A stretch of 64,000 bases of DNA, from the NCBI RefSeq assembly GCF_001440345.1, contig NZ_LJYX01000002.1, positions 186,001-250,000 of the forward strand, in the 5' to 3' direction. This DNA comes from Colwellia sp. TT2012 (GTDB lineage Bacteria; Pseudomonadota; Gammaproteobacteria; Enterobacterales; Alteromonadaceae). This document shows, in pieces, positions 29,037 through 53,299 of this stretch; positions within the stretch are counted from its first letter, which is position 1; each line of letters begins with the position of its first letter. The position numbers and the translations under genes were made by a program. A model generated the notes under the pieces. It was not told the origin of the DNA. It saw only the letters and a program-made list of their open reading frames with translations, and did not search any database.

Positions 29037-29063
29037 GGCGAAAATTTTAAACGAGTTAAGCCC

Positions 29064-31960: not shown

Positions 31961-32070
31961 AAAAAGCCGATGATAATATCTCCACTAATAAATAGTTAAG
32001 AATTACATCGGCATAGTTAGCTTATGGGGAAGCTACAAAAAATTATTACAATAAGTGTTCGCTTAAGAAC
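31961..32070 (-). ncRNA. Candidate small RNA, copy A
   Basis: A minus-strand unit homologous to the one at 53172-53264. It has a possible promoter (TTTACT at 32106-32101, 18-base spacer, TATAGT at 32082-32077), then the conserved block CTTATTGTAATAATT. Next is a hairpin TAGCTT/AAGCTA at 32018-32035 whose loop reads CCCCAT in the RNA, and finally a GCCGATG/CATCGGC stem followed by six T, a terminator with a long 33-base loop. No open frame is conserved between the two copies. Function unknown. Confidence 0.5.
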
Positions 32071-32099
32071 AAGTGTACTATAGAGCAAGAGCTCTATAT

Positions 32100-32171
32100 A
32101 AGTAAAGCTATTTCTAAAGTATAAACTCTATTTTTTGTTCTTGAGCATTATTCGTGCGTTTGTGCCATGTG
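32100..32171. repeat. Flank repeat shared with 34616-34688
   Basis: About 72 bases, from TAAAGCTATTTCTAAAG to GTGCGTTTGTGCCATGTG, recur at 34616-34688 with one indel and several substitutions. It is the region just upstream of candidate small RNA A. Confidence 0.75.
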
Positions 32172-32490
32172 AATAGACATTATTAATGCCACGATCAAGC
32201 ATGACCGCATTTACCACACAACGGACTATATCTATTAGCTGAAATCACTCAAAATTAGGTGCGCTATTGATACATAAGCGGCCATAAATATTTGAAGTAA
32301 TATTCGCAATGCTGACTTTGCATAGTTGATTACTTACATTAAGCTAACCGTTTGAAAAGAATAAGGTAATGTAAAACTATAAGCAAAAATAAGCTACTGC
32401 TGGAAATTAAATATTTAAATAAACATGATTGAACTATATTGTTAGTGGTAATACATTATCTCCGCTAGTAAATATTATGAGGGCATAAAC
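32172..32490. other. Non-coding region before diguanylate cyclase
   Basis: A/T-rich sequence with no gene recognised. It must include the promoter of the cyclase gene, whose GAGGG ribosome site is at 32479-32483. Confidence 0.4.
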
Positions 32491-33627
32491 TTGATAGATG
32501 GTTTCACAATAAGAATTGTATTCGCGGTTGTCACTAGCCAAATTTTAATCTCTGCAATATATTTTCAAGTAAAAAACCCTGAAATTAAGGGTGTGCAACA
32601 ATACTCGTTTCATGCATTATTTTTATGTTTAATGTTCACATTGACTGCAATATTTACCAATTCATTACCTCACTTAGGGGCAATATTAAATAATATATTT
32701 TTTGTTTTTGTATCTTATTATTATTGTCGGTCATTCCTTGAATTATTAGAAATACGATCCTATCTAAAATTCGAACGTATATGGTTTTATATAGCAATAA
32801 TTATATCAACTGTAATTACGGTAATAGATATTTCAAGGACTATAAGAGTTCCATTTATTGAGCTAATTGTCGCACTAATACCTTATTCATATTTACTTTA
32901 TATGATTCGAAAAAAAGTTAGACTTTCAAATTTACCTAAAGAAATAAACTTTTTTACTTATTCATTATTTATTTTAATCATTGCACATTTTGCATATATG
33001 AATTCATTAACCTTTTCATCATATCCATCAAGTTATTTAAATAACCAAATACGAAATATTTCGCTCATTTGCATTATGTTTGCTCATTTATCATCAACCA
33101 TTGCATTTCTAATGCTAGTATCAGGATTAAAAGAAAGTAAACTTGTCAATTTATCAAACACTGATAGCTTAACTGGATTATTAAATAGGAGAGCTTTTTT
33201 TGAAATAGTTGAATCTTTACCGAGTAATACAAGCCATTATTTTATTATGTTTGATGCCGATTTTTTCAAAAAAATAAATGATAAATTTGGTCATATTGTT
33301 GGTGATAAAGCCCTCCAACATATTTCTCAAACGTTAAAGTCATGCTTAAGTGAAAATGATGTAGTTGCACGTTATGGTGGAGAGGAATTTATAGCCGTTA
33401 TTTCAAATTGCACTGTAGAAAACGTAGATTCAATTGCAGAAAGAATCAGGCTAGAGATAATTAAAAATAAATTCTATATTGACAATATCCATGTCCCAAT
33501 TACATTAAGTATTGGTGTAGCAAAATACCAAGATTCTGATCCTTTAATTGATATTGATAAAGCTGACCAGATGTTATATAAAGCGAAGAAAAATGGTCGA
33601 AATATGGTTTGTATCTATAGCCATTAA
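32491..33627 (+). CDS. Membrane diguanylate cyclase (7TM-like sensor, GGDEF)
   Basis: A 378-residue protein. About seven hydrophobic segments occupy residues 6-211, followed by a GGDEF domain from about 222 (NTDSLTGLLNRRAFFEI) with the active-site loop GGEEF at 296-300 and DADFFKKINDKFGH upstream. It should make c-di-GMP from two GTP. The RxxD inhibitory site five residues before GGEEF is absent (SEND instead), so product inhibition by that route is not expected. TTG is taken as start because GAGGG lies 7 bases before it. The coding sequence is visibly more A/T-rich than its neighbours, which hints at transfer. Confidence 0.85.
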   Translation: MIDGFTIRIVFAVVTSQILISAIYFQVKNPEIKGVQQYSFHALFLCLMFTLTAIFTNSLPHLGAILNNIFFVFVSYYYCRSFLELLEIRSYLKFERIWFYIAIIISTVITVIDISRTIRVPFIELIVALIPYSYLLYMIRKKVRLSNLPKEINFFTYSLFILIIAHFAYMNSLTFSSYPSSYLNNQIRNISLICIMFAHLSSTIAFLMLVSGLKESKLVNLSNTDSLTGLLNRRAFFEIVESLPSNTSHYFIMFDADFFKKINDKFGHIVGDKALQHISQTLKSCLSENDVVARYGGEEFIAVISNCTVENVDSIAERIRLEIIKNKFYIDNIHVPITLSIGVAKYQDSDPLIDIDKADQMLYKAKKNGRNMVCIYSH

Positions 33628-34016
33628 ACTTCAATAAAGCTCCATATAATTATGAATAGAGTAGATGATATTGTTTAATGGAATAAGACACTTTATTGCA
33701 TCGGTTAATTTATTGACAAAATATCAATTGACCGCTTTATCCTCACAAGTAGACGTTTGGATATGGAAGTGACTTACTTCCGCAATGCGCACCAAGAAGT
33801 CATTAGCGGTGAACTATTTTTCACTATTCATTGGCTAAATAGTTATGGCTCACTAATACCACAGAGTGAGCGTTAATATTGTTCTGTCTCGAAAATTCTC
33901 AAAGGCTCTGAACCTGATGGCTTGAACTTAGATTTAGTTCAAGCCATCACCTCTGAAACAGTTAGTTTCGCTTAATTTTTTTGTTGGTCACTAAACTTGT
34001 TAGGGATGCATGTGGA
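33628..34016. other. Intergenic region with one large stem-loop
   Basis: No gene is recognised. GATGGCTTGAACT and its exact complement at 33916-33948 enclose a 7-base loop (13-bp stem). There is no T tract, so it is not a typical terminator. Confidence 0.5.
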
Positions 34017-34346
34017 TTAATGGATTGTGCGCTCTTGCTTGTCCCACAGGCTTCCTTGCCAATTTGAGATCGTTCCAGAGGCTTCACAGGTATCGCAATG
34101 CCACTCAATTATACCCATGGCAATACCTGTTGCCGCAATGCCTCCTAGACAAAAAAGTTCGTCAGCTCGGCTGTTGCATTTCAAATCAACATCAATGAGT
34201 GGTTGCTCTATATTTTCAGAAACCGATGACACTATTTTGATCAGAAATTTGAAAACCGTTTTTGCTTGTTCCGTAAGTTCTAGTACGTTACCTTCTTCGT
34301 CAAGGAAATGTCTTAAATCTGCTTTTAACGCCATACGTTTTATCAA
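34017..34346 (-). CDS. Conserved small protein with WHC-x2-C and WQGSLWD motif
   Basis: A 109-residue protein. The N-terminal LRHFLDEEGNVLELTEQAKT and the C-terminal IIEWHCDTCEASGTISNWQG followed by SLWD match a widespread short family of unknown function, whose members share HCPxCGxxGxISxWQGTxWD and often occur near mobile elements. The two Cys and the His could bind a metal. ATG at 34334 (MALKADL) is an alternative start. It stands alone on the minus strand. I cannot assign a function. Confidence 0.65.
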   Translation of the reverse strand: MIKRMALKADLRHFLDEEGNVLELTEQAKTVFKFLIKIVSSVSENIEQPLIDVDLKCNSRADELFCLGGIAATGIAMGIIEWHCDTCEASGTISNWQGSLWDKQERTIH

Positions 34347-34615
34347 TTATAAAAGGTTAAGCTAGCTAACATATAGCAGTTAAAGCTCTTGGTACATTAA
34401 TTCTAATTTAATATTATCAAGTTGACAGTACAGTTGGAGAGTTACATCTGTTTGACTAGGTAATAACAATAACCAATTCAACTTATTAGATACGAAAGCA
34501 GAGGTTTTCTTGAATAGTTGTAAAGACTTATCTATGAAGGTTTATTGATCATCAGCGTTATAATCTAAGTCTTGATGATATTATATTTGTCACGGATGTC
34601 GACAAAGCCCACCAT
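34347..34615. other. Non-coding region
   Basis: No gene, repeat or hairpin was recognised here; it leads into the flank repeat. Confidence 0.35.
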
Positions 34616-34688
34616 AAATAAAGCTATTTCTAAAGTATAAACTCTATTTCGTTGCTCTGGATCATTATTAGTGCGTTTGTACCATGTG
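34616..34688. repeat. Flank repeat, second copy
   Basis: Matches 32100-32171 (upstream of candidate small RNA A). The small RNA body itself is not present here, so only the upstream part was copied or retained. Confidence 0.75.
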
Positions 34689-34760
34689 TGGTTTGTTATA
34701 AATAATGAGATATACGATCGAAAATGAGCTTTTTATAATGTTTGAGATAGCCAATAAATA

Positions 34761-35042
34761 CTATTTTCGTATATGAATACTTACTTGAGTATTAATAGTC
34801 CCTTCCTCATCAATGGCAATGACCGCCTCATTAAGCAACATGACTACCTGAGTTATTTCATCTTGGGTGCGAATAAAACTTAGTTCATAGCCATAATTAT
34901 ACATTGAACTGACAGACGCTTGCTGGGCAACACTCAGTTGCGTCCACAATGCATGTGTACTCGGGCAAACATGCCTGCGTTCGTCTCGATCTATTTCAAT
35001 TTTACCGGTTAAATTTTTGGTGTTTTTAATAGCAGAAGACAT
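34761..35042 (-). CDS. Conserved hypothetical small protein
   Basis: A 93-residue soluble protein that I do not recognise by name. The sequence is varied and protein-like (DRDERRHVCPSTHALWTQLS, then YNYGYELSFIRTQDEITQVV), with no membrane segment. It has a plausible ATG and is followed by non-coding sequence on both sides. No operon partner or functional clue is visible. Confidence 0.5.
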   Translation of the reverse strand: MSSAIKNTKNLTGKIEIDRDERRHVCPSTHALWTQLSVAQQASVSSMYNYGYELSFIRTQDEITQVVMLLNEAVIAIDEEGTINTQVSIHIRK

Positions 35043-35300
35043 AGTGAATTGCGTCCTTGTAACACGACAATGGGTAGCTAAGGTATAGCAGTTTTCAATT
35101 TATATTCAATCAGCAGGAAGGTTTTTATAGTTGTTGTTAGCAAGCCAAGTGTTACTTTTTTACCTAGTGCGAGAATTTACCACGGGTATTTTATTAGCAA
35201 AAATGGGGTGGTATGACCGCTTTAACAGGCGAATTGTCATACATCAGCAATAATTCAACCATTATGCCTATGCACAGATGACAGAACTATTGCTGGTTAA

Positions 35301-35684
35301 TCATTTCCCTAAGCCACTAATCCCAAGATACAGACCAGAAATATAGGAAATCATCCAGAAAGCCCAAACAAGGATGCTAAAGCGGTGGAAAGTTTTTTGC
35401 AGCTCAAGATCATTATTCCGGATAGCGATGAATGCCCAACAAAAATGGAAAATCATCAAGAAAAGCCCTAAGAAGCCCGAAATTGAATGGGCAGTAAAGA
35501 TAAGGTGGCCGACATGCAGGTACATCATGATAGTGCCAATAGTATCGGTAATGACTCCCAGTCCAAACATGGTTAAATGCCACATCTTTAATTTTTTATG
35601 GTAATAGTCATTCCAGATACCAATAGAATAAAAGATCAGGGCGAGGGTGAAAAAAATGGCTCCCGATAAAATTAACGGTGTCAC
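35301..35684 (-). CDS. HsmA-family (TIGR03987) small membrane protein
   Basis: A 127-residue protein with four hydrophobic helices. The motifs LALIFYSIGIWNDYYHKKLK, WHLTMFGLGVITDTIGT, GFLGLFLMIFHFCWAF and FHRFSILVWAFWMISYISG match the TIGR03987/HsmA family, whose members carry these His-rich helix ends. The function is not established. It is a single gene in front of an MBL-fold hydrolase on the same strand, with about 90 bases between. Confidence 0.7.
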   Translation of the reverse strand: MTPLILSGAIFFTLALIFYSIGIWNDYYHKKLKMWHLTMFGLGVITDTIGTIMMYLHVGHLIFTAHSISGFLGLFLMIFHFCWAFIAIRNNDLELQKTFHRFSILVWAFWMISYISGLYLGISGLGK

Positions 35685-35772
35685 AGCTTTATCCTTTAGA
35701 TAGTTTCAAAGGCTGATTTTAATCTAATTGATAATTAATTGCATTAGTGAGTTGTTAACGTAACTTAATCGT

Positions 35773-36543
35773 TTACTTATGAGCGTTATTTTTAGGCATA
35801 AACTTTATTAAACTCTTGAACTTTGCCTTAACAGAGCGCCAATGGGTTCTAGGAATTTTAGGCGCTAGCGCTAATAAATGTTGAAAATCATGCTCAGATA
35901 GGTGTACTTCCCCACCATGCGCAAGAATAATGCTGTCGGCCTGTAGCGCGATTATTTTGTGCAGTGATGCTCGATATCTATTTGGGTAAAAAAGAGGGAA
36001 GGGCGGAATAAATTTATTTTTAACTTTAACCATTAAATCGGCAACATAGACTTTATTGCTGGGCAGGTGATGTAAAGATAAATCTCTATCAGTATGCCCT
36101 TGAGTGGCTAAGGCAACCCAATCAGAAAATCCTGGTAACGCCTCGCCATCATCTAATTTATAGTCAGCTTTGAGTTGGCTTGAATACCAAATGTTCTTGC
36201 TGGGTCTTTTCATGCGTTTGGCTACCCATTTAGCCAGCAGCATGTCGGTAAGATGCATAAGCCGACCATCTAAGCCTGAATACCACTGGCCACTGACATT
36301 GGCGGTGGCAATTTTACAGCCGGTTATTTTTCGTAGCATATTAGCGGCGCCAGCGTGATCGGGATGCATATGAGTTACCACCACTAAGGTTATATCACTA
36401 AAGGAACGCTGTAATGTTTGTGTGATAAAGTGCTTTAGTACCGAGATGTCTGAGCGACAGCAACCATCAAGCAGCAGTAACTTATCGGGATATTCAGCTA
36501 GTAAAATTGTTTGAATATGTCCGTCAAGGTGATGTAGTTTCAT
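35773..36543 (-). CDS. MBL-fold metallo-hydrolase
   Basis: A 256-residue protein with the metallo-beta-lactamase fold. It has the metal-binding THMHPDHAG motif near 58-66, a later His in ATQGHTDRDLSL, an Asp in KVYVADLMVKV and a His in IILAHGGEVH. Such hydrolases act on thioesters, lactones or phosphodiesters; the substrate is not apparent. There is no signal peptide, so it is cytoplasmic. A basic C-terminus (RSVKAKFKSLIKFM) is present. It may be co-transcribed with the HsmA-type gene downstream on the same strand. Confidence 0.8.
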   Translation of the reverse strand: MKLHHLDGHIQTILLAEYPDKLLLLDGCCRSDISVLKHFITQTLQRSFSDITLVVVTHMHPDHAGAANMLRKITGCKIATANVSGQWYSGLDGRLMHLTDMLLAKWVAKRMKRPSKNIWYSSQLKADYKLDDGEALPGFSDWVALATQGHTDRDLSLHHLPSNKVYVADLMVKVKNKFIPPFPLFYPNRYRASLHKIIALQADSIILAHGGEVHLSEHDFQHLLALAPKIPRTHWRSVKAKFKSLIKFMPKNNAHK

Positions 36544-36675
36544 AGCGATAAAACAGCTCAGTAAATAGGTGGATATCTCAAGGTTACAGTATAAGAAACG
36601 GCTTAAGAGCGCACTGTTTTTTTGAATTAAGTGAATAAAAAATCACAGTGTTAGTCTTGAACATATACTAGCTTG

Positions 36676-36706
36676 AAACCACCCACAGGATCTTGGTGGG
36701 TGGTTT
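36676..36706 (-). terminator. Hairpin after the RND operon
   Basis: An 11-bp perfect stem (AAACCACCCAC / GTGGGTGGTTT) with a 9-base loop lies 21 bases after the RND gene stop. The T run on the minus strand is only three bases, so termination may be partial. Confidence 0.65.
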
Positions 36707-36726
36707 TATCCACTAGCTACAATACT

Positions 36727-39700
36727 TTAATTAAGTACTTTTTCTAGGGCTTCTTCAGATACGTCAAATTCGTGTTCGTCCAACTTGTGCCTTGTTTCCG
36801 CCAGTAATAAATAAAAGCTAGGTAGAATAAACAAGGTAAAGATAGTGCCAATAAACATACCTGCCACTAAAATTATGCCAATGCTGTTACGCGCTTCTGC
36901 GCCTGCACCAGTAACCAATACTAAGGGAAAATGCCCGAGTATTGTTGCTGCTGTGGTCATTAAAATAGGCCGTAACCGTGTCGTTGCCGCTTCAGTGACC
37001 GCCGTGAGTTTATTGGCGCCAAGCTCTTGGGCATGGTTGGCAAATTCAACAATTAAAATACCATTCTTAGCAATTAAGCCAATCAAGGTAATCAAACCTA
37101 TTTGCGAATAAATATTAATGGTGGTTAATTCCATATAAGGGATTAATAACGCACCCGATAGCGCTAACGGTACACAACCTAGCAGCACCACTAAGGGATC
37201 TCTAAAGCTATTAAATTGTATGGCTAATACCAAGAAAACAATCAATAAAGAAACAGCCAATACCATAATTAAGGTATTACCTTCTTGGCGTAACTGTCTA
37301 GATTCACCAGCGTAGTCAATTGAGTAGCCTAAAGGTAATATTTCTTTGGCTGCCTTTTCAAGGGCTGATAACGCTGCTTCTTTGTTTGATCCCGGTGCGA
37401 CACCACCGTAAATTCTAAACGAAGCTTGTTGAGCAAAGGTACCGAGTTGTCTCGGCACCGTTTTCCATTTTAAGTCAGCCACCGCTGAGACAGGTAATAG
37501 CTCGCCGGTAGGTAATTTAATATTCAATGATAAAATTGCTTCGGTTTTACTGCGTACTTCATCATTAACGATGGGAATAACGCGATAAGCTTTACCGTTA
37601 GCATCAAAGCGATTAACAAAGTTACTCGATAATAAAACACTCAGTTGCTCACTAATTTGCCCGACAGTCATACCTAAATCAGCAATTTTTTCTCGATTTA
37701 ATTGCAGTTCCACTTGTGGGAGGTCTATTTTTAAGTCGGTATCAGCGAAAAGAAATTGCCCACTGGCAAAGGCTGCTCCGACAAGTTGATCGGCATATTG
37801 TTTCATTTCACTATAGGGGGCAGAGGCTTTAACAATCATGTCAATTTCAAACTGACCTGAACTCGGTAAAGAGGAGGGGAGAATTGGAAACATATTCAAC
37901 CCAGGTATTTGTGCTAATTTGCCGTAAATACGCGGCACTAATGACTGGGCGCTGTAGTCGCGTTCATCGGCACTGACTAACTCTAAACCGCCAAAACCAC
38001 CACCGCCAAAGATGATCTGCCAAACTTTCTTACCGCCTTCTATTTCTTGCAAGCTTTCTACTACTGGATTCATTTGTGCGACGTTATAAGCGAGTGAAGC
38101 ATCAGGAGGTGATTGAATAACAAACATGACCATCGATTGATCTTCTATGGGCGCGAGTTCTTTTTTCGAGTGTAGATAAAAAGGCACAGCAAGTAGCGAT
38201 ACCACTAGAGCAATAAGAAATACTTGTCCTTGCCACTTAAAAATCTTATGTAACAGCTTGGCGTAGCTGCTCTGCAACTTTTCAAAAAGGTGATTTACTT
38301 TACGGGTGAACCAACCTTCTTCACCGCTTTGAGGAGCAACATATGCGCTCATAATGGGTGACAAGGTAACGGCAACAATCCCTGAAATGATAACGGCAAT
38401 CGCTAAGGTAAAAGCAAACTCTTTGAATAATACCCCAGTCAGACCAGACAAAAATCCGATAGGTGCATAAACGGCTGCCAGTGTTAAGGTCATTGAGATA
38501 ATGGGCACCAAGAGCTGGCGTGAACTAATCAAGGCAGCATCAAATTTTGACATGCCTTGACGCATTAGTCGGGCAACATTTTCTACTACAACAATGGAAT
38601 CATCAACCACTAAACCCACCGAGAGTACGATAGCTAACACGGTTAATAGGTTTAACGAAAAGCCCATCATAGTCATAGCGGCAATAGCGCCTAAAATAGA
38701 AATAGGTATGGTGATTAATGGCACTATAGCGCTTCTAAAAGAGCCCATAAGTAGTACTACTACTAAGCCAACTAAAAAGATTGTTTCAGCTAAGGTGGTA
38801 AAAATCTCAGTTAAGGCATCGCGCATATACAAGGTGCCGTCGTAAGCATAACCAATGGAAATACCGTTGGGTAGAGTTTTGTTTAGCTCAGCTACTGTTT
38901 CATATAACCTATCACCAATGGCAATTTCATTAGCGCCAGGCAATGGCCAAATGGAAATATAAACGGCATCTTGATCATTTAATCTAGCGGTGACACTGCT
39001 ATCTTCTGCTGCTAGCTCAATTTTTGCGACATCTCTTAAATAGATATTCGCGCCATCTAGCTCACTGACCACCAATTGTTCAAACTCTTCAACACTGCTG
39101 AGTTGGGTATTAGCAACGATATCAATTTTTTGCCGACTATTTTCGACATAACCCAAAGTGGCTATGGTGTTGTTTGCTGCTAAGGCTTGATAAACATCAC
39201 TGGCGCTTAAGTTAAATATTTGTAGTGCCTCTGGATCTAACCAGACACGCATTGCCGGTGTTCGAGCGCCCTCAATACCAACTCTTTGTACACCTTCAAT
39301 AGCATTTAAAATCGGATTAACTTGGCGAATTAAATAATCGGTAATGCGTGATAAGTCATTACCGTTGGCATGAACATTTAAATAAAACACCGCAAAAGGT
39401 CTATCGGCACGACTCACTGATACCATGGGGTCTTGCGCGCCAGCAGGTAACTCAAAACGAATTTGACTTAAGCGAGCGGTTAATTCAGCTAGCGCCAAGG
39501 TCGAATTTTCATTGAGTTTTAGCCAAGCGGTAACTTTCGAACTGCCAGATGTGCTGGTCGATTCGACATATTCAACCCCTGGCACGGTAGCGGCAACACG
39601 CTCAATTGGCTCGGTAACAAAACCTTGCACTACATCAGCGGCAGCGCCGATGTAATAGGTCTCAATTACTAATGAGGCACTTTCAATTTTCGGAAATTGC

Positions 39701-39822
39701 AGTACCGGAATTTTACTTGCTGACCATAGGCCGGCAATACAAATAATAATAGACAAAACAATGGCGACCACAGGTCGCTTGACAAAAACGTCCATAATCG
39801 ATGGTTTATTTTCTTGCATCAT
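36727..39822 (-). CDS. RND efflux pump inner-membrane transporter (HAE1 type)
   Basis: A 1031-residue AcrB-like transporter with 12 helices in two repeats and two large periplasmic loops. It starts with DVFVKRPVVAIVLSIIICIA. The proton-relay aspartates are in helix 4, VLSVGLVVDDSIVVVENVAR, and the second repeat has GLITLIGLIAKNGILIVEFA. It exports drugs, detergents or signalling molecules across both membranes, driven by protons, with the membrane fusion protein encoded 9 bases upstream and a TolC channel encoded elsewhere. Substrate range cannot be read. Confidence 0.92.
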   Translation of the reverse strand: MMQENKPSIMDVFVKRPVVAIVLSIIICIAGLWSASKIPVLQFPKIESASLVIETYYIGAAADVVQGFVTEPIERVAATVPGVEYVESTSTSGSSKVTAWLKLNENSTLALAELTARLSQIRFELPAGAQDPMVSVSRADRPFAVFYLNVHANGNDLSRITDYLIRQVNPILNAIEGVQRVGIEGARTPAMRVWLDPEALQIFNLSASDVYQALAANNTIATLGYVENSRQKIDIVANTQLSSVEEFEQLVVSELDGANIYLRDVAKIELAAEDSSVTARLNDQDAVYISIWPLPGANEIAIGDRLYETVAELNKTLPNGISIGYAYDGTLYMRDALTEIFTTLAETIFLVGLVVVLLMGSFRSAIVPLITIPISILGAIAAMTMMGFSLNLLTVLAIVLSVGLVVDDSIVVVENVARLMRQGMSKFDAALISSRQLLVPIISMTLTLAAVYAPIGFLSGLTGVLFKEFAFTLAIAVIISGIVAVTLSPIMSAYVAPQSGEEGWFTRKVNHLFEKLQSSYAKLLHKIFKWQGQVFLIALVVSLLAVPFYLHSKKELAPIEDQSMVMFVIQSPPDASLAYNVAQMNPVVESLQEIEGGKKVWQIIFGGGGFGGLELVSADERDYSAQSLVPRIYGKLAQIPGLNMFPILPSSLPSSGQFEIDMIVKASAPYSEMKQYADQLVGAAFASGQFLFADTDLKIDLPQVELQLNREKIADLGMTVGQISEQLSVLLSSNFVNRFDANGKAYRVIPIVNDEVRSKTEAILSLNIKLPTGELLPVSAVADLKWKTVPRQLGTFAQQASFRIYGGVAPGSNKEAALSALEKAAKEILPLGYSIDYAGESRQLRQEGNTLIMVLAVSLLIVFLVLAIQFNSFRDPLVVLLGCVPLALSGALLIPYMELTTINIYSQIGLITLIGLIAKNGILIVEFANHAQELGANKLTAVTEAATTRLRPILMTTAATILGHFPLVLVTGAGAEARNSIGIILVAGMFIGTIFTLFILPSFYLLLAETRHKLDEHEFDVSEEALEKVLN

Positions 39823-39831
39823 AAGCCCTTA

Positions 39832-40965: not shown

Positions 40966-41081
40966 GATTGTTCCTTTATCCTTATTTTTTAAAACGCTTA
41001 ATTAATGCCTTGAGCGTATTTACTGTATTGCGGCTTAGTTGTTTAATGATAGTTAATCTGTGCAGGTATTGGCCTTTAAAC

Positions 41082-41804: not shown

Positions 41805-41829
41805 ATATAAATCTTATTTTGTAATTGTA

Positions 41830-41850
41830 TTCGAATGTCGTTCAAATGTC
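41830..41850. promoter_or_regulatory. Direct repeat upstream of tetR gene
   Basis: TTCGAATGTC and TTCAAATGTC occur 11 bases apart, about one helical turn, 26 bases before the TetR start. TetR operators are more often palindromic, so this is tentative. Confidence 0.4.
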
Positions 41851-42594: not shown

Positions 42595-42596
42595 CG

Positions 42597-43463: not shown

Positions 43464-43612
43464 GATTGTTACCTATATGTAAAAGTGTTTTACTAAAATA
43501 GGATATTATCATTTGAGCGGAAATAAATATAATAGCCCTCATACTTTACTTGGCTAGAGTTATTTAGCGTTAGTTAAACCTGATTAGTAGATAAGCTTGT
43601 TGATAGGTTTAG

Positions 43613-44836
<1,224 letters not shown>

Positions 44837-44923
44837 CACTTGGATAAATAGCCTTTATTCACTACGTTATTTTATCGCTGGTGTTTTGTTTGATAAAGCA
44901 CTAGCCAAAGCTAAGGATTTACT

Positions 44924-45763
44924 ATGACCATAGAATGTTTAACCAGTAATAAAATGTTTGGCGGTTGGCATAAACAATATAGCCATCAAGCCAGTAGCTT
45001 AAATTGTAGTATGCGTTTTGCTATTTTTTTACCACCCCAAGCATCGAGTAGCAATAAAGTTCCTGTGCTTTATTGGTTATCAGGGCTTACCTGTACCGAT
45101 GAAAATGTTATGCAAAAATCAGGCATACAGCGTATTGCTGCTGAGTTAGGTATGGCCATTGTTGCCCCTGACACAAGCCCAAGAGGTGAAGGTGTTGCTG
45201 ATGATGACGATTATGATTTAGGCCAAGGAGCAGGGTTTTATCTTAATGCTAGCCAAGCGCCGTGGAATCGCCATTATCAAATGTATGATTATATTGTTGA
45301 TGAATTACCGGCACTGATTGAAGCAACTTTTCCGGTCAGTAATAAGCGCGCTATCGCCGGTCATTCTATGGGTGGACATGGCGCGTTAACCATAGCCTTG
45401 AAAAATCCAGAGCTTTATTGCTCAGTTTCTGCCTTTAGTCCTATCAGTAACCCCATCAATTGTCCTTGGGGGCAAAAAGCCTTTAGTGCCTACTTAGGTG
45501 ATGATAAGGATTTATGGCGAGATCATGATGCCAGCGAATTGATGCGACGGGTTAAACAATTTGTCCCTGCTCGGGTTGATCAAGGCGAAGCGGATAACTT
45601 TCTTGAGGAGCAGTTAAAACCTGATGCTTTGCTGTCGGCGGCAAAGAGCAATGGCTACCCGCTTGAGTTAAATCGTCATGAGGGTTATGACCATAGCTAT
45701 TATTTTATCAGTAGTTTTATTGAAGAGCAGTTACGTTTTCATGCACAATATCTCAGTCGATAG
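44924..45763 (+). CDS. frmB: S-formylglutathione hydrolase
   Basis: A 279-residue esterase D-type hydrolase that splits S-formylglutathione into formate and glutathione, completing formaldehyde detoxification started by frmA. The nucleophile serine is in GHSMGGHGAL, with family blocks YWLSGLTCTDENVMQKSG, DTSPRGEGV and the catalytic His in GYDHSYYFISSFIEEQLRFH. It follows frmA in the same direction, so the two are likely co-transcribed. A terminator lies 18 bases after its stop. Confidence 0.93.
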   Translation: MTIECLTSNKMFGGWHKQYSHQASSLNCSMRFAIFLPPQASSSNKVPVLYWLSGLTCTDENVMQKSGIQRIAAELGMAIVAPDTSPRGEGVADDDDYDLGQGAGFYLNASQAPWNRHYQMYDYIVDELPALIEATFPVSNKRAIAGHSMGGHGALTIALKNPELYCSVSAFSPISNPINCPWGQKAFSAYLGDDKDLWRDHDASELMRRVKQFVPARVDQGEADNFLEEQLKPDALLSAAKSNGYPLELNRHEGYDHSYYFISSFIEEQLRFHAQYLSR

Positions 45764-45781
45764 CTAGACTTTTAGTCGCAA

Positions 45782-45820
45782 AAAAAAGCCACCTAGTCAT
45801 AGTAATTAAGTGGCTTTTTT
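45782..45820. terminator. Two-way rho-independent terminator
   Basis: AAAAAAGCCAC and GTGGCTTTTTT form an 11-bp stem with a 17-base loop between the convergent frmB and GNAT genes. Confidence 0.82.
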
Positions 45821-45858
45821 ATTGTTCATATTTAAGTGGGTGCAGTGTACAGGTTAGG

Positions 45859-46317
45859 TTAGCTAATCTTCTTCGACATAAAGGTGCTGTAGGGATCTGC
45901 CTGATAATCAGCAAAGGGCGGACAAGTGGCAAAACCAAGTTGTTGATAGAGCTTTTGTGCCGGAAGAAACACCGCCATGGAGCCTGTTTCTAAACTTAGT
46001 ATGTGATAACCGCGAGTGCTTGCTTGGTCGATCATATGGGTCAATAGCAACTTAGCTACACCTTGGCGTAAAAAGTTCTTGGAGGTGCGCATGGATTTAA
46101 TTTCGCCATGAAACCTATCTAACTCTTTTAAAGCGCCACAGCCAGCTAATTCATTATCTTTCCAGACACTCCAAAAACTGATGTCTGCATGGGATAATGC
46201 GGATAAATCTAAGGCATGTACACTTTCTGGCGGCGAATGCAGCAACATATCTTGATGGTGCTCGGCTAACAATGTTATGACAGCGGGATGTGTTAGTTCG
46301 CCGATGTGGATTTCCAT
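45859..46317 (-). CDS. GNAT-family N-acetyltransferase
   Basis: A 152-residue acetyltransferase. It contains the acetyl-CoA-binding block LRQGVAKLLLTHMIDQASTR (R/Q-x-x-G-x-G/A-like), preceded by the IKSMRTSKNF strand, and ends with the typical KLYQQLGFATCPPFADYQAD motif of YafP/ElaA-like enzymes. The acceptor substrate is unknown. It lies 50 bases downstream of a DUF2750 gene on the same strand. Confidence 0.82.
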   Translation of the reverse strand: MEIHIGELTHPAVITLLAEHHQDMLLHSPPESVHALDLSALSHADISFWSVWKDNELAGCGALKELDRFHGEIKSMRTSKNFLRQGVAKLLLTHMIDQASTRGYHILSLETGSMAVFLPAQKLYQQLGFATCPPFADYQADPYSTFMSKKIS

Positions 46318-46366
46318 GCTGTTGCTACCTTTATATAAAGTTACTTTAGAAAGCTACTGTAGAGAG

Positions 46367-46792
46367 CTATTTTCGATTTTGCTTTTTAGTTTCTTTTAGC
46401 AGCAACTCTTCAAATTCTTCAGGAAATAGTATCAAGCCCTTATTATCTTGATTGGGAAAAACCACCAAAGCCAAGTCATCATCGGCCAGGCCCATGCTCC
46501 ATCGACTGTACCATTTAGCCAAAGAAATTTCCTGAGGCTGGCATGCTTGCCACTCACCTGTTGCCCAACCCTGAGCAAATTCTTTATTGGGCCATACCGG
46601 CACACAATCCTCATCGTCAGTATTGAGCATCATACAGCCATGCTCATCAGTCAATAGCCAAATTTCTTTATTGCTAACGACTTGCTGAAGTAGATAGTTT
46701 AAACGTTTTTCATCATCATAATTTTCTATGGTATTAAGCTGTTCAGTTGATATAGGCATGGGCAAGAAGGGCTGTTTGGAATAATAGTTCAT
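46367..46792 (-). CDS. DUF2750 family protein
   Basis: A 141-residue soluble protein. The blocks EIWLLTDEHGCMMLNTDDED, CVPVWPNKEFAQGWATGEWQ and LALVVFPNQDNKGLILFPEE match the DUF2750 family, small cytoplasmic proteins of unknown function in gammaproteobacteria. The family usually starts close to MPISTEQL, so an internal ATG may be the true start. It is adjacent to a GNAT gene, possibly in one transcript. Confidence 0.75.
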   Translation of the reverse strand: MNYYSKQPFLPMPISTEQLNTIENYDDEKRLNYLLQQVVSNKEIWLLTDEHGCMMLNTDDEDCVPVWPNKEFAQGWATGEWQACQPQEISLAKWYSRWSMGLADDDLALVVFPNQDNKGLILFPEEFEELLLKETKKQNRK

Positions 46793-46870
46793 TATTTTAT
46801 CGTGTTACCTACACACTAACAACCGCTGTTTTGTTCTAATCCTAGTGCTTAACTACTGCCGGGGTTGAGC

Positions 46871-48067
46871 TTACTTATTACTATAACCCGTCATTTCAAC
46901 AAAACCTTGGCCTTGATGACTGCCACTAAAAGTCACCATACCTTCAAAGTATTCAATACCAAAGCGCATAATTTGTTGCTCATTAACTACCGTCACCTTG
47001 ATGTCGATATTTTCTTTCGCGATAAGTAATGAAAATGATTGTGGGTAGGGGGAGTTACTGGTGAGGTTATGGTAGTGGCTGATAAGAGTGATATCGTTCG
47101 AGGCAATACTACGAATGTCACCATTGCGCATCATTATGCTGGCATACAAATAATCTTCTTGCTTTGAGCGAGCACGAAAAACCATCAAGGCAGTATTGTC
47201 ATTAAGGCGCAGTGCAAACCAGTCCCAACCTTGTTGATCTGGCCCTAGCGGTTGTGAAGACCATTCACGTTCGAACCAGGCTTGACCTGTCACTTTTTGC
47301 CATTTCCCTTGCCAATAGACCTTACCCGTGACTTCTATAAAAGGCTGAGAATAATAGTGGCTGGCGATATTTAAACTCGGGTGTTTAATGCTAAAGCCCT
47401 TTTCGCCCTGCAGAAAGAACTCTGCTGTTGTAGTTAGATTCAGTTCTACTTGCCAATGCTTTTCTCTCGTCGTTGTAGCGATCTTTTCCTTTATTGGACC
47501 ATTTACTTTTGAAATATCTACGGCACTCTCTATCTCGGCAACATCCACTGCACTCGTTATTGAGCCAACCGCTGAGCCATAAACCAGGCTGGCGGGTAGC
47601 AAGGACGATGTGGACTGCCATTGCCAGTCATCTATTGTGGCATTAAAGGGCTCAGAAGATATGTTGACGTTGCCTAGCTCTTCGCGACCATGTCTATAGG
47701 CGGTGTTATGGCTTTGTGCATCCGCTAAAGCGGCATGAGCGAAGTACCAATGTTTATCGCCAACCGCTCGGCGAAAAAGGGTCCATTGACTTGCCAATGA
47801 CTGGCCATGTTCAGTCGTTAACGTTGCGGTTAAATACCACCACTCTTGGCGATACGCTTTTTTCGGCGCATGGGCTTGTGGAAAAAGTATCAGATTATGC
47901 ATTGATGGACTAGCAAATTTACCGTCCGCATCGGTAAGGTATTTTAGTGGCTGGCGTTTTTTTTCCGCTTCTTCACTGCAGCCAGTAATAAGTAGACCAC
48001 TGGCTAGCAAGATTAATAGCGGTTTTAAACAATATTTTAAGCAATGCCTTAAGTAAAAAATCATCAT
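46871..48067 (-). CDS. AttH/CrtC-like lipocalin-fold lipoprotein
   Basis: A 398-residue lipoprotein with a long hydrophobic signal ending in the lipobox LLITGC (Cys near residue 30). The body contains the motif AYRQEWWYLTATLTTEHGQS and later GQAWFEREWSSQPLGPDQQG followed by WDWFALRL, the signature of CrtC/AttH lipocalin-like domains. CrtC hydrates carotenoids, but AttH-type members occur with ABC exporters and are of unknown biochemistry. Its start overlaps the stop of the FtsX-type permease gene (ATGA), so it is the third gene of an ATPase-permease-lipoprotein operon. Confidence 0.85.
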   Translation of the reverse strand: MMIFYLRHCLKYCLKPLLILLASGLLITGCSEEAEKKRQPLKYLTDADGKFASPSMHNLILFPQAHAPKKAYRQEWWYLTATLTTEHGQSLASQWTLFRRAVGDKHWYFAHAALADAQSHNTAYRHGREELGNVNISSEPFNATIDDWQWQSTSSLLPASLVYGSAVGSITSAVDVAEIESAVDISKVNGPIKEKIATTTREKHWQVELNLTTTAEFFLQGEKGFSIKHPSLNIASHYYSQPFIEVTGKVYWQGKWQKVTGQAWFEREWSSQPLGPDQQGWDWFALRLNDNTALMVFRARSKQEDYLYASIMMRNGDIRSIASNDITLISHYHNLTSNSPYPQSFSLLIAKENIDIKVTVVNEQQIMRFGIEYFEGMVTFSGSHQGQGFVEMTGYSNK

Positions 48068-50502
48068 GACAAACTGGCCCTCACATTGAGCTTATATAAG
48101 GGAATGGCTAATGCAGGTAATAATATCAATAGCCCGGTAACACTAGTGATAGCAAATGGCGCGATATCTAATACTAGCGGCATTGACCAGCCAAATGATG
48201 CGGGTAGCACTTTTGCTACCAAGGCTTTAGCCAGTAAGCCAGCTATCGGCCAGCTAAGTAAAAGCACACCAAAAGCTAACAATAGCCACTGCATTAACAT
48301 ATGACTAAAGAGCTCAATACGGCTATAACCCAAACTACTTAATATGTGTAAATCTGGTTTGCGCGCCAATTCTAAATTGTTGGCTGATAAAAACAGGCCA
48401 AAGCAGGCGATAATGAGTAAAACAAAAGCGATTGCCTGAGTCAGTACAAAAGTTTGCTTAAATATTGCTAGTGCCATTGTTTTGATTTCTTCAGGTAAAA
48501 ATATCTGCTCGTTATCAAGACCTAACTGCTCAGCTAACGCGGCTGTACTTAGATTATTACGGCCCTTAAAGTAGACAGCAAAGCCATGTTCACGCCAGCC
48601 TGAAAGAGGAATTTCCTGGGCCTTTAACGGAATTTTGACCGAATAGCCTTGATTGCCATAGTCATAAAAAATGGCTGTTATGGTACAGGTGAGCTGTTGC
48701 AGGCCTTGCTCGACGGTGAACTGTTCATTTAAGGCTAAGCCTTTTTTAAGCGATAGCTGTTCGTTGATATAACAACTGAATTGCCCTGGTGATTGCTGCT
48801 TGGACGACCGTGCTTTAAACAATAAACTATTTTTTTGTTTAACCGACATAAGCGCATGAACCGCTAGGGTATCATTACCGTATTTGGCGATAGTCTGGTT
48901 AAATACCACATATTCATCAATATACTCTTGCTGTTTAAGCCAGGCCTCAACCTTGTTTTTTTGCTTGGGGTTATAACTGATAAAGAGGTCTGCACTCAAC
49001 AACTGCTCTAAATAGGCAGTGAAAGCTTTTTCAAAACTGTTGACCATAAGCGCCGCGGAAATACTGGCGGTGAGTGCTAGGTAAAATGCTGCTAAGGGTA
49101 AATAGCGTCTACCCACTTGTTGGCGGGCATCTTTAACCACAAATTTGAGCCGAAAAGAGCGAGTGAAATAACTCATGCCCTTAAGTAAGTAACTCAATAT
49201 ATTAGGTAATAAGGCGACACTGGCGATTAACAGTAGGCCATATTTTATCATTAATAGATGCCAGGAATTTTGTCCATAAACCTCAGGCCAAAGTAGGAAA
49301 ATAGCCAGTAAGATTAGGCCAATGGCAGCGCTTGCTCGGTAGTTAAATGATTGAGGAACAATGCGGGCTGTTAGGGCGATTTTTGCTGAGCTAATAATTC
49401 TAAACTGTTTAAATAGTGCCAACAAAACGGCCACGGCAGAAATAGCGAATGCCCATAAGCTATATAACCAATGCCATTGAAAATGTCCGCTTTGTCTTAG
49501 CTGATATAGCTGCTCTAAGGTAATTCCTAATATAGGCAGTAAGATTGAAACCAAGGCAAAAGCGATGGCAATACCAATAATACTGGCGAGCAAGGTTAAT
49601 AGCAAAGCTTCACATAGCATAACTTTTAGAATGCTGGTTAATTCTACGCCAAGTAAGCGTAACTTTGCCGCTAACTCGCCGCGTTTTTGCCATGCTTGAT
49701 CAGCGGCTTGAAAAGCGATAAATAAACTGACGATAAAGCCTAAAATGGCCAGTGCCGATAAATTTAAATGCAAAGCATCGGCAAAACCTTCTCGTTCTTC
49801 AAGTGACCAGGCCTCTTGAATGGATAAATGCTCGGGTAAAGCTGCGGCTAACCGTGCCTTTTCATCGGTGCTAATGGCGGTCACCATTAAATGACTAAAG
49901 CCTTTGATATCGGGAAATAGTTGCCAAGCAAGGGGTAAGTCAATTAAGGCGACTTTGCCCCAGTCATTGATTTGATTGTAGTTAACTTTAAATGATTGGT
50001 CACCAGCTAAGGTGATTTGCTTGGTATCATTTTTATCTGTCGTTGAATTAAGCGTCAAGCCAAGGGCTTTGGCGTATTTGCTGCTTAGATTAATATGATG
50101 AGTGGTAAAAATTTTTGGCAGGGTCAAAACCAGTGGCAGCATGTCCATGGCTCGGAATGATATTTGCTTACCGGAAGCAAGTGTTTTACCAAAAAGATGT
50201 ATTGGCGCAAGCTGATAAAAACCTTGGGCCTTTAACTTGCTAAAGTCATGGCGTGAAATAGTGTGCCCTTCATTGGCAACAATATAAAAACTTACGGGAG
50301 ATTTTAACCCCCTATTGGCTGCTTGGTACTGCTGTTCGCTGGCATGATTTAATACCAGAATACTGAGTAGAGTGCTGGTGGCTATGGCTAAACTTAAAAT
50401 AAAGCCAAGGTTTAATAGTGGTTTATGTAAGTATTCAGCAAGGTGTGCTTTAACAACCAATAAAAACTCACTATTTTTTTCTGTATTAGCTGTTTCTTTC
50501 AT
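48064..50502 (-). CDS. FtsX-like ABC transporter permease (large, two-half)
   Basis: An 812-residue permease with about ten membrane helices. It has one N-terminal helix, a periplasmic domain, three or more helices near 250-370, then a second set with the C-terminal FtsX/MacB-type block (about 690-812). It resembles AttF/AttG-type permeases fused into one chain, or YbbP. It works with the LolD-type ATPase encoded four bases upstream. Such ATPase/FtsX systems act as mechanotransducers or lipoprotein extractors rather than simple importers. The coupled CrtC/AttH lipoprotein is the probable periplasmic partner. Confidence 0.85.
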   Translation of the reverse strand: MKETANTEKNSEFLLVVKAHLAEYLHKPLLNLGFILSLAIATSTLLSILVLNHASEQQYQAANRGLKSPVSFYIVANEGHTISRHDFSKLKAQGFYQLAPIHLFGKTLASGKQISFRAMDMLPLVLTLPKIFTTHHINLSSKYAKALGLTLNSTTDKNDTKQITLAGDQSFKVNYNQINDWGKVALIDLPLAWQLFPDIKGFSHLMVTAISTDEKARLAAALPEHLSIQEAWSLEEREGFADALHLNLSALAILGFIVSLFIAFQAADQAWQKRGELAAKLRLLGVELTSILKVMLCEALLLTLLASIIGIAIAFALVSILLPILGITLEQLYQLRQSGHFQWHWLYSLWAFAISAVAVLLALFKQFRIISSAKIALTARIVPQSFNYRASAAIGLILLAIFLLWPEVYGQNSWHLLMIKYGLLLIASVALLPNILSYLLKGMSYFTRSFRLKFVVKDARQQVGRRYLPLAAFYLALTASISAALMVNSFEKAFTAYLEQLLSADLFISYNPKQKNKVEAWLKQQEYIDEYVVFNQTIAKYGNDTLAVHALMSVKQKNSLLFKARSSKQQSPGQFSCYINEQLSLKKGLALNEQFTVEQGLQQLTCTITAIFYDYGNQGYSVKIPLKAQEIPLSGWREHGFAVYFKGRNNLSTAALAEQLGLDNEQIFLPEEIKTMALAIFKQTFVLTQAIAFVLLIIACFGLFLSANNLELARKPDLHILSSLGYSRIELFSHMLMQWLLLAFGVLLLSWPIAGLLAKALVAKVLPASFGWSMPLVLDIAPFAITSVTGLLILLPALAIPLYKLNVRASLS

Positions 50503-50506
50503 CAGT

Positions 50507-51175
50507 TCAACCGGTAACTAAGCTGACAGTAGATTCTTGTAAACGATAGATTTTATCCATACTAGCAGCCACATCGGCGCTATGAGTCACCATAAGTAAG
50601 GCGGTGTTGTTGGACTTAGCTAGCTGGACTAACTGTGCTACTACCTGGCTACTATTCTGCTGGTCTAAATTTCCGGTTGGTTCATCAGCAAGCAACAATT
50701 TTGGCTTACTGTTTAGCGCGCGAGCAATGGCTACTCGCTGCATTTCACCCCCTGATAAGGTTGCCGGATATTTTTTTAATAAGCTGCTAATACCAAGTTG
50801 CTCTGCTAGTGCTAAACCATGCATAACATCATAGCGACCAGCGAGTTTGGCACTGAACTCAATATTATCTTGCACCGATAAGCTAGTAAGTAAATTAAAG
50901 TGTTGGAAAATAATACCAATATGCTGTTTGCGTAACTGGCTAAGTTGTCCATCACTGGCTTGTGCTAAGGAAATACCAGCTACTTCAACTCTACCTTGCT
51001 GAATTGGCTCTAAACCTGCAATCAAGTTGAGTAGGGTGGTTTTGCCACTGCCGCTATCGCCCATCAAAGCCACACATTCACCCGGGGCAACGGATAAATT
51101 TAAATCGACTAATAATTGGCGATGAGTATCACCATCGATGATTTGATGATTGAGTGACTGGATAAGTAAGGACAA
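50507..51175 (-). CDS. LolD/MacB-type ABC transporter ATPase
   Basis: A 222-residue ATPase with Walker [10 protein letters not shown] near 38, Q-loop IFQHFNLL, signature [15 protein letters not shown], Walker [13 protein letters not shown] and a switch His in [10 protein letters not shown]. This is the LolD/FtsE/MacB class that powers FtsX-type permeases. It heads the operon with the 812-residue permease and the AttH-like lipoprotein. CACCTCCT-type sequence upstream (GGAGG on the coding strand at 51179-51183) is a strong ribosome site close to the ATG. Confidence 0.9.
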
Positions 51176-51183
51176 AACACCTC

Positions 51184-51529
51184 CTGTTATTATGACGAAC
51201 TAATGCGAGTTATTAGCATTATAGCGAAGCTAGCGTTAATCTCACCCCGCAAGAAGCGGTGAATATAAAAGTGATGCTGATTTTAACCTTGTAATATATT
51301 ACGACACTTTAAAAAAAATGTTTTAACCGCACTAGCTTATGCTTTTATATTGTACTCCTTTGGCAGATAGCTCTTGTACTAATCACATTATGTTATTAAT
51401 ATCCTTCATGAATATCCCTTCATACTTATAATTAGCCTAAACAGCACAACCACTTTTAGGCTTGAAAAACACTGGCTGCTGAGCCTTGATAATAATAGTG
51501 CTAGGGAAGCAGTTGCTTAAGGATTTCAA
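51184..51529. other. Intergenic region between ABC operon and CHASE-GGDEF gene
   Basis: Divergent promoters for the two genes must lie here. I saw no repeat, palindrome or gene. The stretch around 51301-51340 is strongly A/T-rich. Confidence 0.35.
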
Positions 51530-53137
51530 ATGGCTTTAAAAACCAACAATGCAGTAATGCAAATTTTTGTCATGATTGTCGGCATCTTACTATCTACATT
51601 AAGTGGCTGGTTTCTTTTTGATGTTGAAAAAAAAGCCATCATTAGTGAATTTCACAAGGATATTGACGAACGCGCTGCCTCATTATCTCGTGAGATAGAA
51701 ATAAATATTGAAGCACTATATACCTTAGCAACGTTATTTAGCCAAGCATCAACCCCTGATTTTCAAGCTTTTACCACGCAAGCAAGAAAGACCTTAAATC
51801 GTCATAATGATATCCAAGCTTTGGAATGGATACCCCGTGTGCCACACGATCAAAGACAAGCTTATGAGGCAGAGTTAAGAAAAAGTTTCCCTGACTTTGA
51901 GTTTACTGAACGTAAGGCGCAAGGCTATATGGCAGTGGCGCAGCAAAGAGCCGAGTATTTTCCTGTTTATTATGTTGAGCCTTTAGTTGGCAACGAAGCC
52001 GCATTTGGTTTTGACTTGGCGTCAAATGCCACACGTCGTGAGACGCTAGAAAAATCACGAGATAGCGCTACGGCGCGAGCTACGGCGAGTATCACCCTGG
52101 TGCAAGATAATGATAAGGAAAAAGCTTTTTTAGCCTTTTTACCAATATATAAAGGGCAACCAAGCACCTTAGCTAAGCGTAAAAAAAACTTACAAGGTTT
52201 TATTCTTGGGGTTTATCGTATCGCCGATATTTTTGTCAGCTCAACCCTAAATGATGAATTACTGGGCTTAGAAATTGACCTTGTTGATGAGACTGATCCC
52301 AATAATATTGATTTGCTCTATACCCATAGTTCATCAACAGGTTTTATGGTTGATAGAAATATTATTTATAAAAAAGTACTACCTGAAATATTAGGACGTA
52401 AGTGGAGTTTAATTGGTTCACCAACACAGAGCTATATTTCGGTAAGAAGAAGTGTACTGCCTCTGTTCGTCTTTGGTGCGGGTATTATTTTTACCCTATT
52501 TATTACTGCTTATATTCGTAGCATTACCAAGCGCGCCAATGTGGTACAAAGGATTGTTATCGAAAAAACCAATGAACTGAATGAAGCCAATAAAAGGTTA
52601 AAAAAGCTATCGAGGATTGATGGTTTGACCGGTATTGCCAATAGACGTTTTATGGATGAATTTTTAGATAGGGAATGGTTACGGGCTATCAGACAAGAAT
52701 CATCAGTCTCCTTTTTGTTAATTGATATCGATTTCTTTAAAGCCTATAACGATAACTATGGCCATTTAGCCGGTGATGAGTGTTTGAAAAAGGTTGGTGC
52801 TTGTCTGAAACAGCAGGTGAATCGTGCTGTAGATATGGTTGCTCGATACGGTGGTGAAGAGTTTGCTTTTGTTTTACTTGATACTCACGATGTTCAATTG
52901 ATTGCCCAACGCTGCTTAAAATCTATTGAAGCGCTAAACATTAAACATGAGTTTTCTCAAGTTGAGGCGGTGATTACCATTAGTATTGGTTATAGTACTA
53001 TAGTGCCGCAAAAGGGCAGTGATCCCAGTAGTCTTATTGCTGCCGCGGATGAAGCATTATATAAAGCTAAAGAAAGCGGCAGGAATAACGCGCTTGCTAG
53101 TTTAACGGCTAATTCACCGCCAACCTTCAGCATATAA
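51530..53137 (+). CDS. CHASE-GGDEF diguanylate cyclase
   Basis: A 535-residue membrane protein with one helix at about 10-30 and one at about 308-328 around a periplasmic CHASE domain (conserved IQALEWIPRVPHDQRQAYEA and PVYYVEPLVGNEAAFGFDLA). A coiled linker is followed by a GGDEF domain (RIDGLTGIANRRFMDEF, active site GGEEF at 441-445). The inhibitory I-site RxxD is present as RAVD, five residues before GGEEF, so product inhibition is expected, unlike the cyclase at 32491. It should make c-di-GMP in response to an extracellular small molecule sensed by CHASE. Confidence 0.9.
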   Translation: MALKTNNAVMQIFVMIVGILLSTLSGWFLFDVEKKAIISEFHKDIDERAASLSREIEINIEALYTLATLFSQASTPDFQAFTTQARKTLNRHNDIQALEWIPRVPHDQRQAYEAELRKSFPDFEFTERKAQGYMAVAQQRAEYFPVYYVEPLVGNEAAFGFDLASNATRRETLEKSRDSATARATASITLVQDNDKEKAFLAFLPIYKGQPSTLAKRKKNLQGFILGVYRIADIFVSSTLNDELLGLEIDLVDETDPNNIDLLYTHSSSTGFMVDRNIIYKKVLPEILGRKWSLIGSPTQSYISVRRSVLPLFVFGAGIIFTLFITAYIRSITKRANVVQRIVIEKTNELNEANKRLKKLSRIDGLTGIANRRFMDEFLDREWLRAIRQESSVSFLLIDIDFFKAYNDNYGHLAGDECLKKVGACLKQQVNRAVDMVARYGGEEFAFVLLDTHDVQLIAQRCLKSIEALNIKHEFSQVEAVITISIGYSTIVPQKGSDPSSLIAAADEALYKAKESGRNNALASLTANSPPTFSI

Positions 53138-53171
53138 CTATGCTTTCTCCGGCTATTTACTTTATTTTAGG
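53138..53171. other. Gap between cyclase stop and small RNA terminator
   Basis: Only 34 bases separate the cyclase stop from the T tract of the minus-strand candidate small RNA; the two-way hairpin at 53180-53201 probably also ends the cyclase transcript. Confidence 0.4.
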
Positions 53172-53264
53172 AAAAAAAAACCGATAGCAAAGGCTATCGG
53201 TGAGTTAGCTATGAGGAAAGCTAGAATATTCAATTATTACAACAAGCGTCCGTATAAGGGAACG
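53172..53264 (-). ncRNA. Candidate small RNA, copy B
   Basis: A minus-strand unit of about 93 bases. It starts about 7 bases after a strong promoter and contains the conserved block CTTGTTGTAATAATT. A TAGCT/AGCTA hairpin (53206-53223) has an RNA loop of UUCCUCAU. The unit ends in a 9-bp stem ACCGATAGC/GCTATCGGT (53180-53201) followed by nine T, a textbook intrinsic terminator. The same order of blocks appears at 31961-32070. No conserved open frame exists. The UCCUC loop is complementary to Shine-Dalgarno sequences, as in many antisense-type small RNAs. Confidence 0.6.
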
Positions 53265-53270
53265 AAGAGA

Positions 53271-53299
53271 AGTATAGAGTAGACACTCTATTTTTTCAA
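53271..53299 (-). promoter_or_regulatory. Sigma-70 promoter of candidate small RNA B
   Basis: On the minus strand TTGAAA (53299-53294) is followed after exactly 17 bases by TATACT (53276-53271). Both hexamers are close to consensus and the spacing is ideal. Confidence 0.65.

Follow-up and report, generated by a model that had tools for sequence, protein, structure and literature searches.

Two homologous predicted small RNAs of Colwellia belong to a conserved family whose older neighbours are polA and engB

Spot 42, encoded by spf, is the textbook carbon-response RNA, and in Escherichia coli its gene stands in the order polA-spf-yihA (yihA is also named engB). In A. salmonicida, glucose raises the level of Spot 42 (PMC3295665). 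The closest published relative, by position, of the RNAs described here is VSsrna24 of Vibrionaceae, published as a Vibrionaceae-limited RNA of about 60 nucleotides that is glucose-repressed, apparently independent of cyclic AMP, and on whose deletion RyhB drops (PMC3295665). In two sibling RNAs of Neisseria gonorrhoeae, stem-loop 2, sometimes together with the stretch before it, obstructs ribosome-binding sites (PMC9973317). Here we describe two homologous predicted small RNAs, A and B, in a 64,000-nucleotide stretch of the genome of Colwellia sp. TT2012 (contig NZ_LJYX01000002.1, positions 186,001 to 250,000; hereafter the window, whose own numbering is used for all coordinates). They represent a genuine conserved small RNA family, for which we found no Rfam entry and no literature report, and whose older neighbours are polA and engB, that is, the Spot 42 (spf) locus. 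A and B are probably paralogues of a family of that locus: the neighbour of spf would have been duplicated, one copy acquiring the upstream portion of the promoter of spf, and Spot 42 lost. The family is ordinary in kind; its history is unusual.

Both units lie on the minus strand, where a sequence-only reading of the window had placed them, and each folds into a 5' hairpin, a second hairpin whose loop is rich in C and U, and a terminator, with a predicted length of about 90-115 nucleotides. Copy A (31960..32071) has a start inferred from its promoter and counterparts in 23 A-type copies of the genus; its 5' hairpin is at 32056..32071 (fold, helix 1 covariation), hairpin 2 with loop CCCC at 32018..32035 (sequence, fold, covariation) and its terminator at 31960..32012 (sequence, fold). 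Copy B (53172..53264) is identified by sequence, fold, DNA search and covariance model, and comprises a 5' hairpin (53247..53264) and a hairpin 2 with loop TTCCTCAT (53206..53223), both seen in fold and covariation, and a terminator (53172..53201; sequence, fold). The promoter TTGAAA-17-TATACT, the 9-bp terminator stem and the nine T described earlier for B are all present. A palindrome, TAGAGY-N4-RCTCTA, lies inside both promoters: in A as the core operator TAGAGCTCTTGCTCTA (32081..32096), between the -35 (32101-32106) and -10 (32077-32082) elements, and in B as TAGAGTGTCTACTCTA (53275..53290), between TTGAAA (53294-53299) and TATACT (53271-53276). Upstream of the promoter, A has a second operator, TAGAGTTTATACTTTA (32115..32130), and B a HexR-like palindrome, TGAAATAAAATTACA (53308..53322). 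The palindromes, the 5' hairpin, the second operator of A, the HexR-like element and engB are additions to the earlier description.

The shared core TTGTAATAATT occurs twice in the window, against 0.18 expected, and 2 of 100 shuffles reach two. For either copy, none of 200 shuffles folds as stably (z -4.1 and -4.6 for the two). The proposed homology of the two copies is borne out by a search of the genome with B, which, besides B itself, retrieved only A (E 2.8e-4; threshold E 0.001). Transcript B lacks an ATG, its conserved linker holds TAA TAA, and by reading only we found no conserved open reading frame. The sequence-only reading had known no Rfam family that fits, and our searches agree: at gathering and permissive thresholds no match reaches a gathering score in the window, and none was found at E up to 0.5 in the loci of 12 relatives.

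We surveyed 39 genomes of the genus (this one included), 196 of the GTDB family and an order sample of 148 that includes some family members; below, L numbers denote locus stretches and G numbers genomes. By DNA search, 38 of the 39 genus genomes hold the family. Sixty genus copies with a recognisable terminator were read (37 B-type, 23 A-type); one L058 copy, which has no T run, and the duplicate L017 were left out. Apart from that A copy of L058, an own promoter and an intrinsic terminator with a U tail are found in the copies. A covariance search, which the sequence-only reading had proposed, yielded relatives in 67 of the 196 family genomes and 19 of the 52 genera (model R1), with strong covariation, and homologues keep the promoter, the hairpin and the terminator. 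Two weak in-family matches, L154 and L178, were set aside on reading as terminator look-alikes, and 18 genera is therefore the safer count. At least two matches occur in 54 genomes, in one of them (G192) through a dubious second match. Six genomes of the order sample have an R1 match; the match outside the family (G331, L278) reads as a bare terminator and was set aside. A pattern scan of named genomes gave 40 stretches, all from Colwellia, Thalassotalea, Thalassomonas, Cognaticolwellia, Litorilituus or Colwelliaceae.

Two-sided changes occur in 13 of 18 base pairs and in 82 cells, where shuffles give 16.3; the alignment holds 45 matches (43 distinct, three weak ones included) fitted to the model. 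Pair counts for helix 1 come from alignment A4, because A2, A3 and A5 place the 5' hairpin wrongly between types; A4, being fitted to the model, is itself biased in favour of the model structure. Conservation is highest in the linker TTGTTGTAATAATT and in hairpin 2: over 42 rows, mean identity is 0.88 in the unpaired linker, 0.95 in the stem of hairpin 2 and 0.78 in its loop, and 0.47-0.54 in the spacer and other loops.

The two types differ in their promoters and in their neighbours. Among the genus copies the core palindrome is present at 10 or more of 12 positions in 36/37 B and 23/23 A rows. A HexR-like palindrome upstream of the -35, at the same threshold, is found in 31/37 B and 0/23 A rows; it resembles the HexR consensus TGTAATTAAATTACA of Vibrio parahaemolyticus (PMC11906056). 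The second operator occurs in at least 19/23 A and 0/37 B rows, a lower bound because in L002 and L051 the script chose the upstream site as best. In other genera (42 copies in L142-L181, dubious matches excluded) the HexR-like site is present in all 13 copies near polA but not engB, at 11 or 12 of 12 positions, and in none of the 11 near engB but not polA. The second-operator box scores 13-16 of 16 in those 11 engB-side copies versus 9-13 on the polA side. Both genes occur in the stretches of eight copies, all of type A (L147 and a Thalassotalea-like genus); ten have neither, including three tandem copies of L179. A place between polA and engB, as spf has, is held by the eight; elsewhere one of the genes is near, and in the window engB only. 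The three tandem copies of the Thalassotalea-like L179 (2023-2636) have degenerate core operators in the second and third copy, and two tandem copies stand between polA and engB in the Thalassotalea-like L180 (2078-2779).

A relative of the family stands where Spot 42 is still present. We read 30 Spot 42 loci from the family; polA lies beside the RNA in all of them and engB within the stretch in 27. In 19 of these 30 sister-genus loci a second small RNA follows spf. The box TTTAGAGYAAATACTTYAAA stands at its -35, and the RNA itself has a hairpin at the 5' end, a loop reading TCTCCCC and a terminator. A profile of its promoter plus transcript matches A-type copies in place (best E 7.5e-10); its 20 best matches are copies of our family, and the best shuffled control has E 1.4. 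A covariance model of the second RNA (R2) finds it in 37 of the 196 family genomes and also matches an R1 copy in G127 (E 7.6e-4). For a profile of the region upstream of spf, the five top matches (E 5e-5 to 0.002; control 0.56) all lie upstream of copies of the HexR type. The Spot 42 model RF00021 matches 50 of the 196 genomes. At E below 1e-4 it matches 39, none of them among the 67 with R1; in the five genomes with both, Spot 42 scores no better than E 9.5e-4. The gathering score of RF00021 catches Spot 42 in only one of the 196 genomes although 39 match below E 1e-4. Some loci (L197, L202-L205, L207-L211) have a shortened Spot 42 of about 71-75 nucleotides that scores far under the Rfam cut-off; downstream of it lies a different transcript-like stretch.

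Duplication with promoter take-over is the simplest reading. A-type copies match the neighbour of spf, and the spf-upstream profile matches HexR-type copies. By sequence, a relative of A and B stands after spf and before engB in many sister-genus loci; Colwelliaceae usually carry the family in two copies, with no Spot 42 detected; and type B takes the polA side, with a HexR-like site at the place it has at spf, and type A the engB side, with two TAGAGT/ACTCTA-type operators. From this we infer that the neighbour of spf was duplicated and that the upstream stretch of the promoter of spf passed to one copy as Spot 42 was lost. B would then be set by HexR, which responds to 2-keto-3-deoxy-6-phosphogluconate and hence to glucose, and by X, a hypothetical protein that binds the operator; A would be set by X only. 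Both RNAs, probably with Hfq, whose gene is present, would pair the TTGTTGTAATAATT linker and the loop (TTCCTC or CCCC) with ribosome-binding sites, and the pairing would block translation of metabolic mRNAs. Base-pairing through the C/U-rich loops, as suggested earlier, is plausible, and by analogy Hfq-assisted pairing through linker and loop together is the probable mode of action. The predicted function is that of a glucose-linked base-pairing RNA.

Several observations weigh against the reading by duplication and take-over. The strong score of the second-RNA profile depends on the promoter, since the transcript alone scores weakly (best E of A/B 0.0032, control 0.42). One genus of the family, g37, is mixed: six loci have the second RNA between polA and engB and no Spot 42 core in the stretch, and locus L183 has both RNAs, so Spot 42 loss is not limited to genomes with doubled RNAs. 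Six of the 37 genus B copies lack a good HexR-like site. In the Colwellia sp. TT2012 genome, HexR-like 15-mers with at most one mismatch are not enriched (15, against 22 for a reversed-pattern control), and the genes beside a second perfect site show no obvious connection with carbon metabolism. Finally, a HexR site upstream of a promoter has been read as activating (PMC11906056); HexR acting in this way would make B fall with glucose, whereas Spot 42 rises in A. salmonicida.

The palindrome at spf and B may not be a HexR site at all but belong to another regulator or be a conserved element of the promoter, an alternative to which we give clearly less than an even chance. The best HexR-like match falls at -58 to -60 of spf in 46 of 60 loci (L182-L211, 19/30 from the family; L283-L312, 27/30 from the order sample) and is weak in many. 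Outside the family it often reaches only 9 of 12 positions (15/30 order-sample loci), a score equalled by about 8-30% of mononucleotide shuffles, and HexR of Enterobacteriales has been described as a local zwf regulator (PMC5343134). These points and the lack of enrichment speak for the alternative. Against it, all 12 positions are present in 8 of the 30 family spf loci, and the exact putative pgi site of V. parahaemolyticus, TGAAAAAAAATTACA (PMC11906056), stands at -59 to -45 of spf in E. coli K-12 (L313, 341-355) and also in the spf loci L182, L284 and L295. Moreover, the Colwellia genome encodes hexR (NF008451, above cut-off), with a perfect HexR-like site in the gap between zwf and hexR-pyk and, 22 bases ahead of gapA, a site with one mismatch. 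In the literature searched, no report of HexR as a Spot 42 regulator was found, the two being mentioned together only in Neisseria work, and the main text of two HexR regulon papers (PMC3223726, PMC5343134) does not use the terms small RNA, sRNA or spf.

It is very unlikely that A and B are themselves extremely diverged Spot 42 RNAs. They occupy the same locus, with a HexR-like site before the polA-side copy, and their distribution is nearly complementary to that of RF00021. However, even with E values up to 10 allowed, a Spot 42 profile has no match in the 40 R1 loci, the Rfam search of the 12 relatives' loci (E up to 0.5) was also empty, the two RNAs stand side by side in the 19 sister-genus spf loci, and A-type copies resemble the second RNA rather than Spot 42. 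The Spot 42 5' core beginning GTAGGGTACAG is absent from A and B; RF00021 has no match in the window, and its best match in the genome, elsewhere, scores 20.9 bits against a cut-off of 80. In 26 genomes, of which 23 have R1 matches and 3 the R2 RNA, a permissive Spot 42 search gave none above cut-off. Weak matches at E up to 1 occurred in 24 of the 26 (best 5.9e-4) versus 8 of 14 controls, and the Spot 42 core was absent from the five weak-match loci checked. In the literature searched, Spot 42 and Colwellia are named together only in work on Aliivibrio wodanis as a production host.

Protein sequestration in place of base-pairing, as by a CsrA-like sponge or decoy, is very unlikely. Several hairpins are present and duplication raises dosage, as it does for csrB and csrC, but reading of the alignments revealed no repeated GGA loops, the loop that is conserved is rich in C and U, and of the unpaired parts the A/U-rich linker is kept best. 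A role of the promoters and terminators in cis alone, as a leader or attenuation RNA of neighbours such as the cyclase or ubiE, is likewise very unlikely: B lies in the upstream region of ubiE in 35 of 37 genus copies, but its transcription points away from ubiE and ends at a strong terminator, and the neighbours vary by genus (polA, engB, ubiE, GGDEF) while the RNA is constant.

Within the genus, ubiE flanks the same 35 B copies and engB lies within the stretch of 18 of 23 A copies; one genome (L054) has the tandem order ubiE-B-A-engB. The locus in the window is rearranged, with A 2.2 kb from engB (28908..29750, plus strand; TIGR03598 above cut-off; open reading frame as listed, true start probably internal) and B adjoining ubiE (53494..54333, plus strand; protein family match and synteny). 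A UbiE query found no relative in viral contigs. Both RNAs also lie next to diguanylate cyclase genes, at the positions first described, that of B convergent and 35 bases away and that of A divergent. The special link to cyclases suggested on this basis is not supported: the cyclase of B stands beside only 6 of 37 genus B copies, and that of A was found in this genome only (1 of 23 genus A copies). A different GGDEF protein (32-34% identity) is present in L034 and L059. The association is local only, and on synteny we reject a functional tie of the RNAs to the cyclases.

The operator motif also recurs at other sites of the genus. Its exact pattern is present in 33 of 39 genus genomes, with 50 forward sites versus 9 for the reversed pattern. 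At least 11 of 20 further operator stretches lie near lexA- and coxB-like genes (named by eye from three stretches). There the operator reads TAGAGTNNNNACTCTA (L092-L094, L096, L098-L101, L104, L105, L108), and a TTGACCTAGATCAA- or TTGACCTAGGTTAA-type stretch stands beside it. A TAGAG..CTCTA-like palindrome directly precedes a putative pheA, also named by eye, in L095, L102, L109 and, with one mismatch, L268; in some of these four a terminator-like hairpin lies between the palindrome and the gene. In the window, a relic of the A upstream region (34614..34688, minus strand; 75 bp, 89% identical to 32098-32171) keeps the first operator of A, and no small RNA follows it.

Taken at its widest, the reading is that HexR, besides CRP, controls the Spot 42 locus order-wide, and that in Colwelliaceae the neighbour RNA was duplicated, seized that promoter and replaced Spot 42, the second copy passing under another operator and the siblings dividing carbon signals. 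We put this forward tentatively, at somewhat less than even confidence. If true, a regulatory slot was taken over by a different RNA. A lineage in which Spot 42 is not detected and a doubled neighbour remains at the locus raises the question of whether the RNA, its targets or the promoter was selected. The HexR-like element before spf, in E. coli K-12 too, points to a candidate regulator of Spot 42 that is simple to test.

Compared with described systems, the family shares with Spot 42 (RF00021) the polA-engB locus, clearly so in the eight copies with both genes near, and the HexR-like element upstream of the -35, and differs in that A and B have neither an RNA sequence or model match to it nor its core. 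The likeness to Hrs13 (RF02631) is confined to a sub-threshold match of B, the best it has in Rfam (22.8 bits and E 8.6e-4 when 201 bases were searched, the gathering score being 52), and the loci of the 12 relatives have no Hrs13 match. NgncR_162 and NgncR_163 of N. gonorrhoeae are likewise a sibling pair with three stem-loops and a role in central metabolism (PMC9973317); they belong to another bacterial class and are analogues in working mode only. VSsrna24 is short and occupies the corresponding intergenic region, after spf and ahead of engB/yihA, a position that the sister-genus relative shares in its 19 spf loci and A and B do not, as their genomes show no spf. Its C/U-rich stretch is alike by eye only, in presumed Vibrio loci rather than in a named VSsrna24 sequence. 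At about 60 nucleotides VSsrna24 contrasts with the 90-115 predicted for A and B, which are doubled and occur in another bacterial family.

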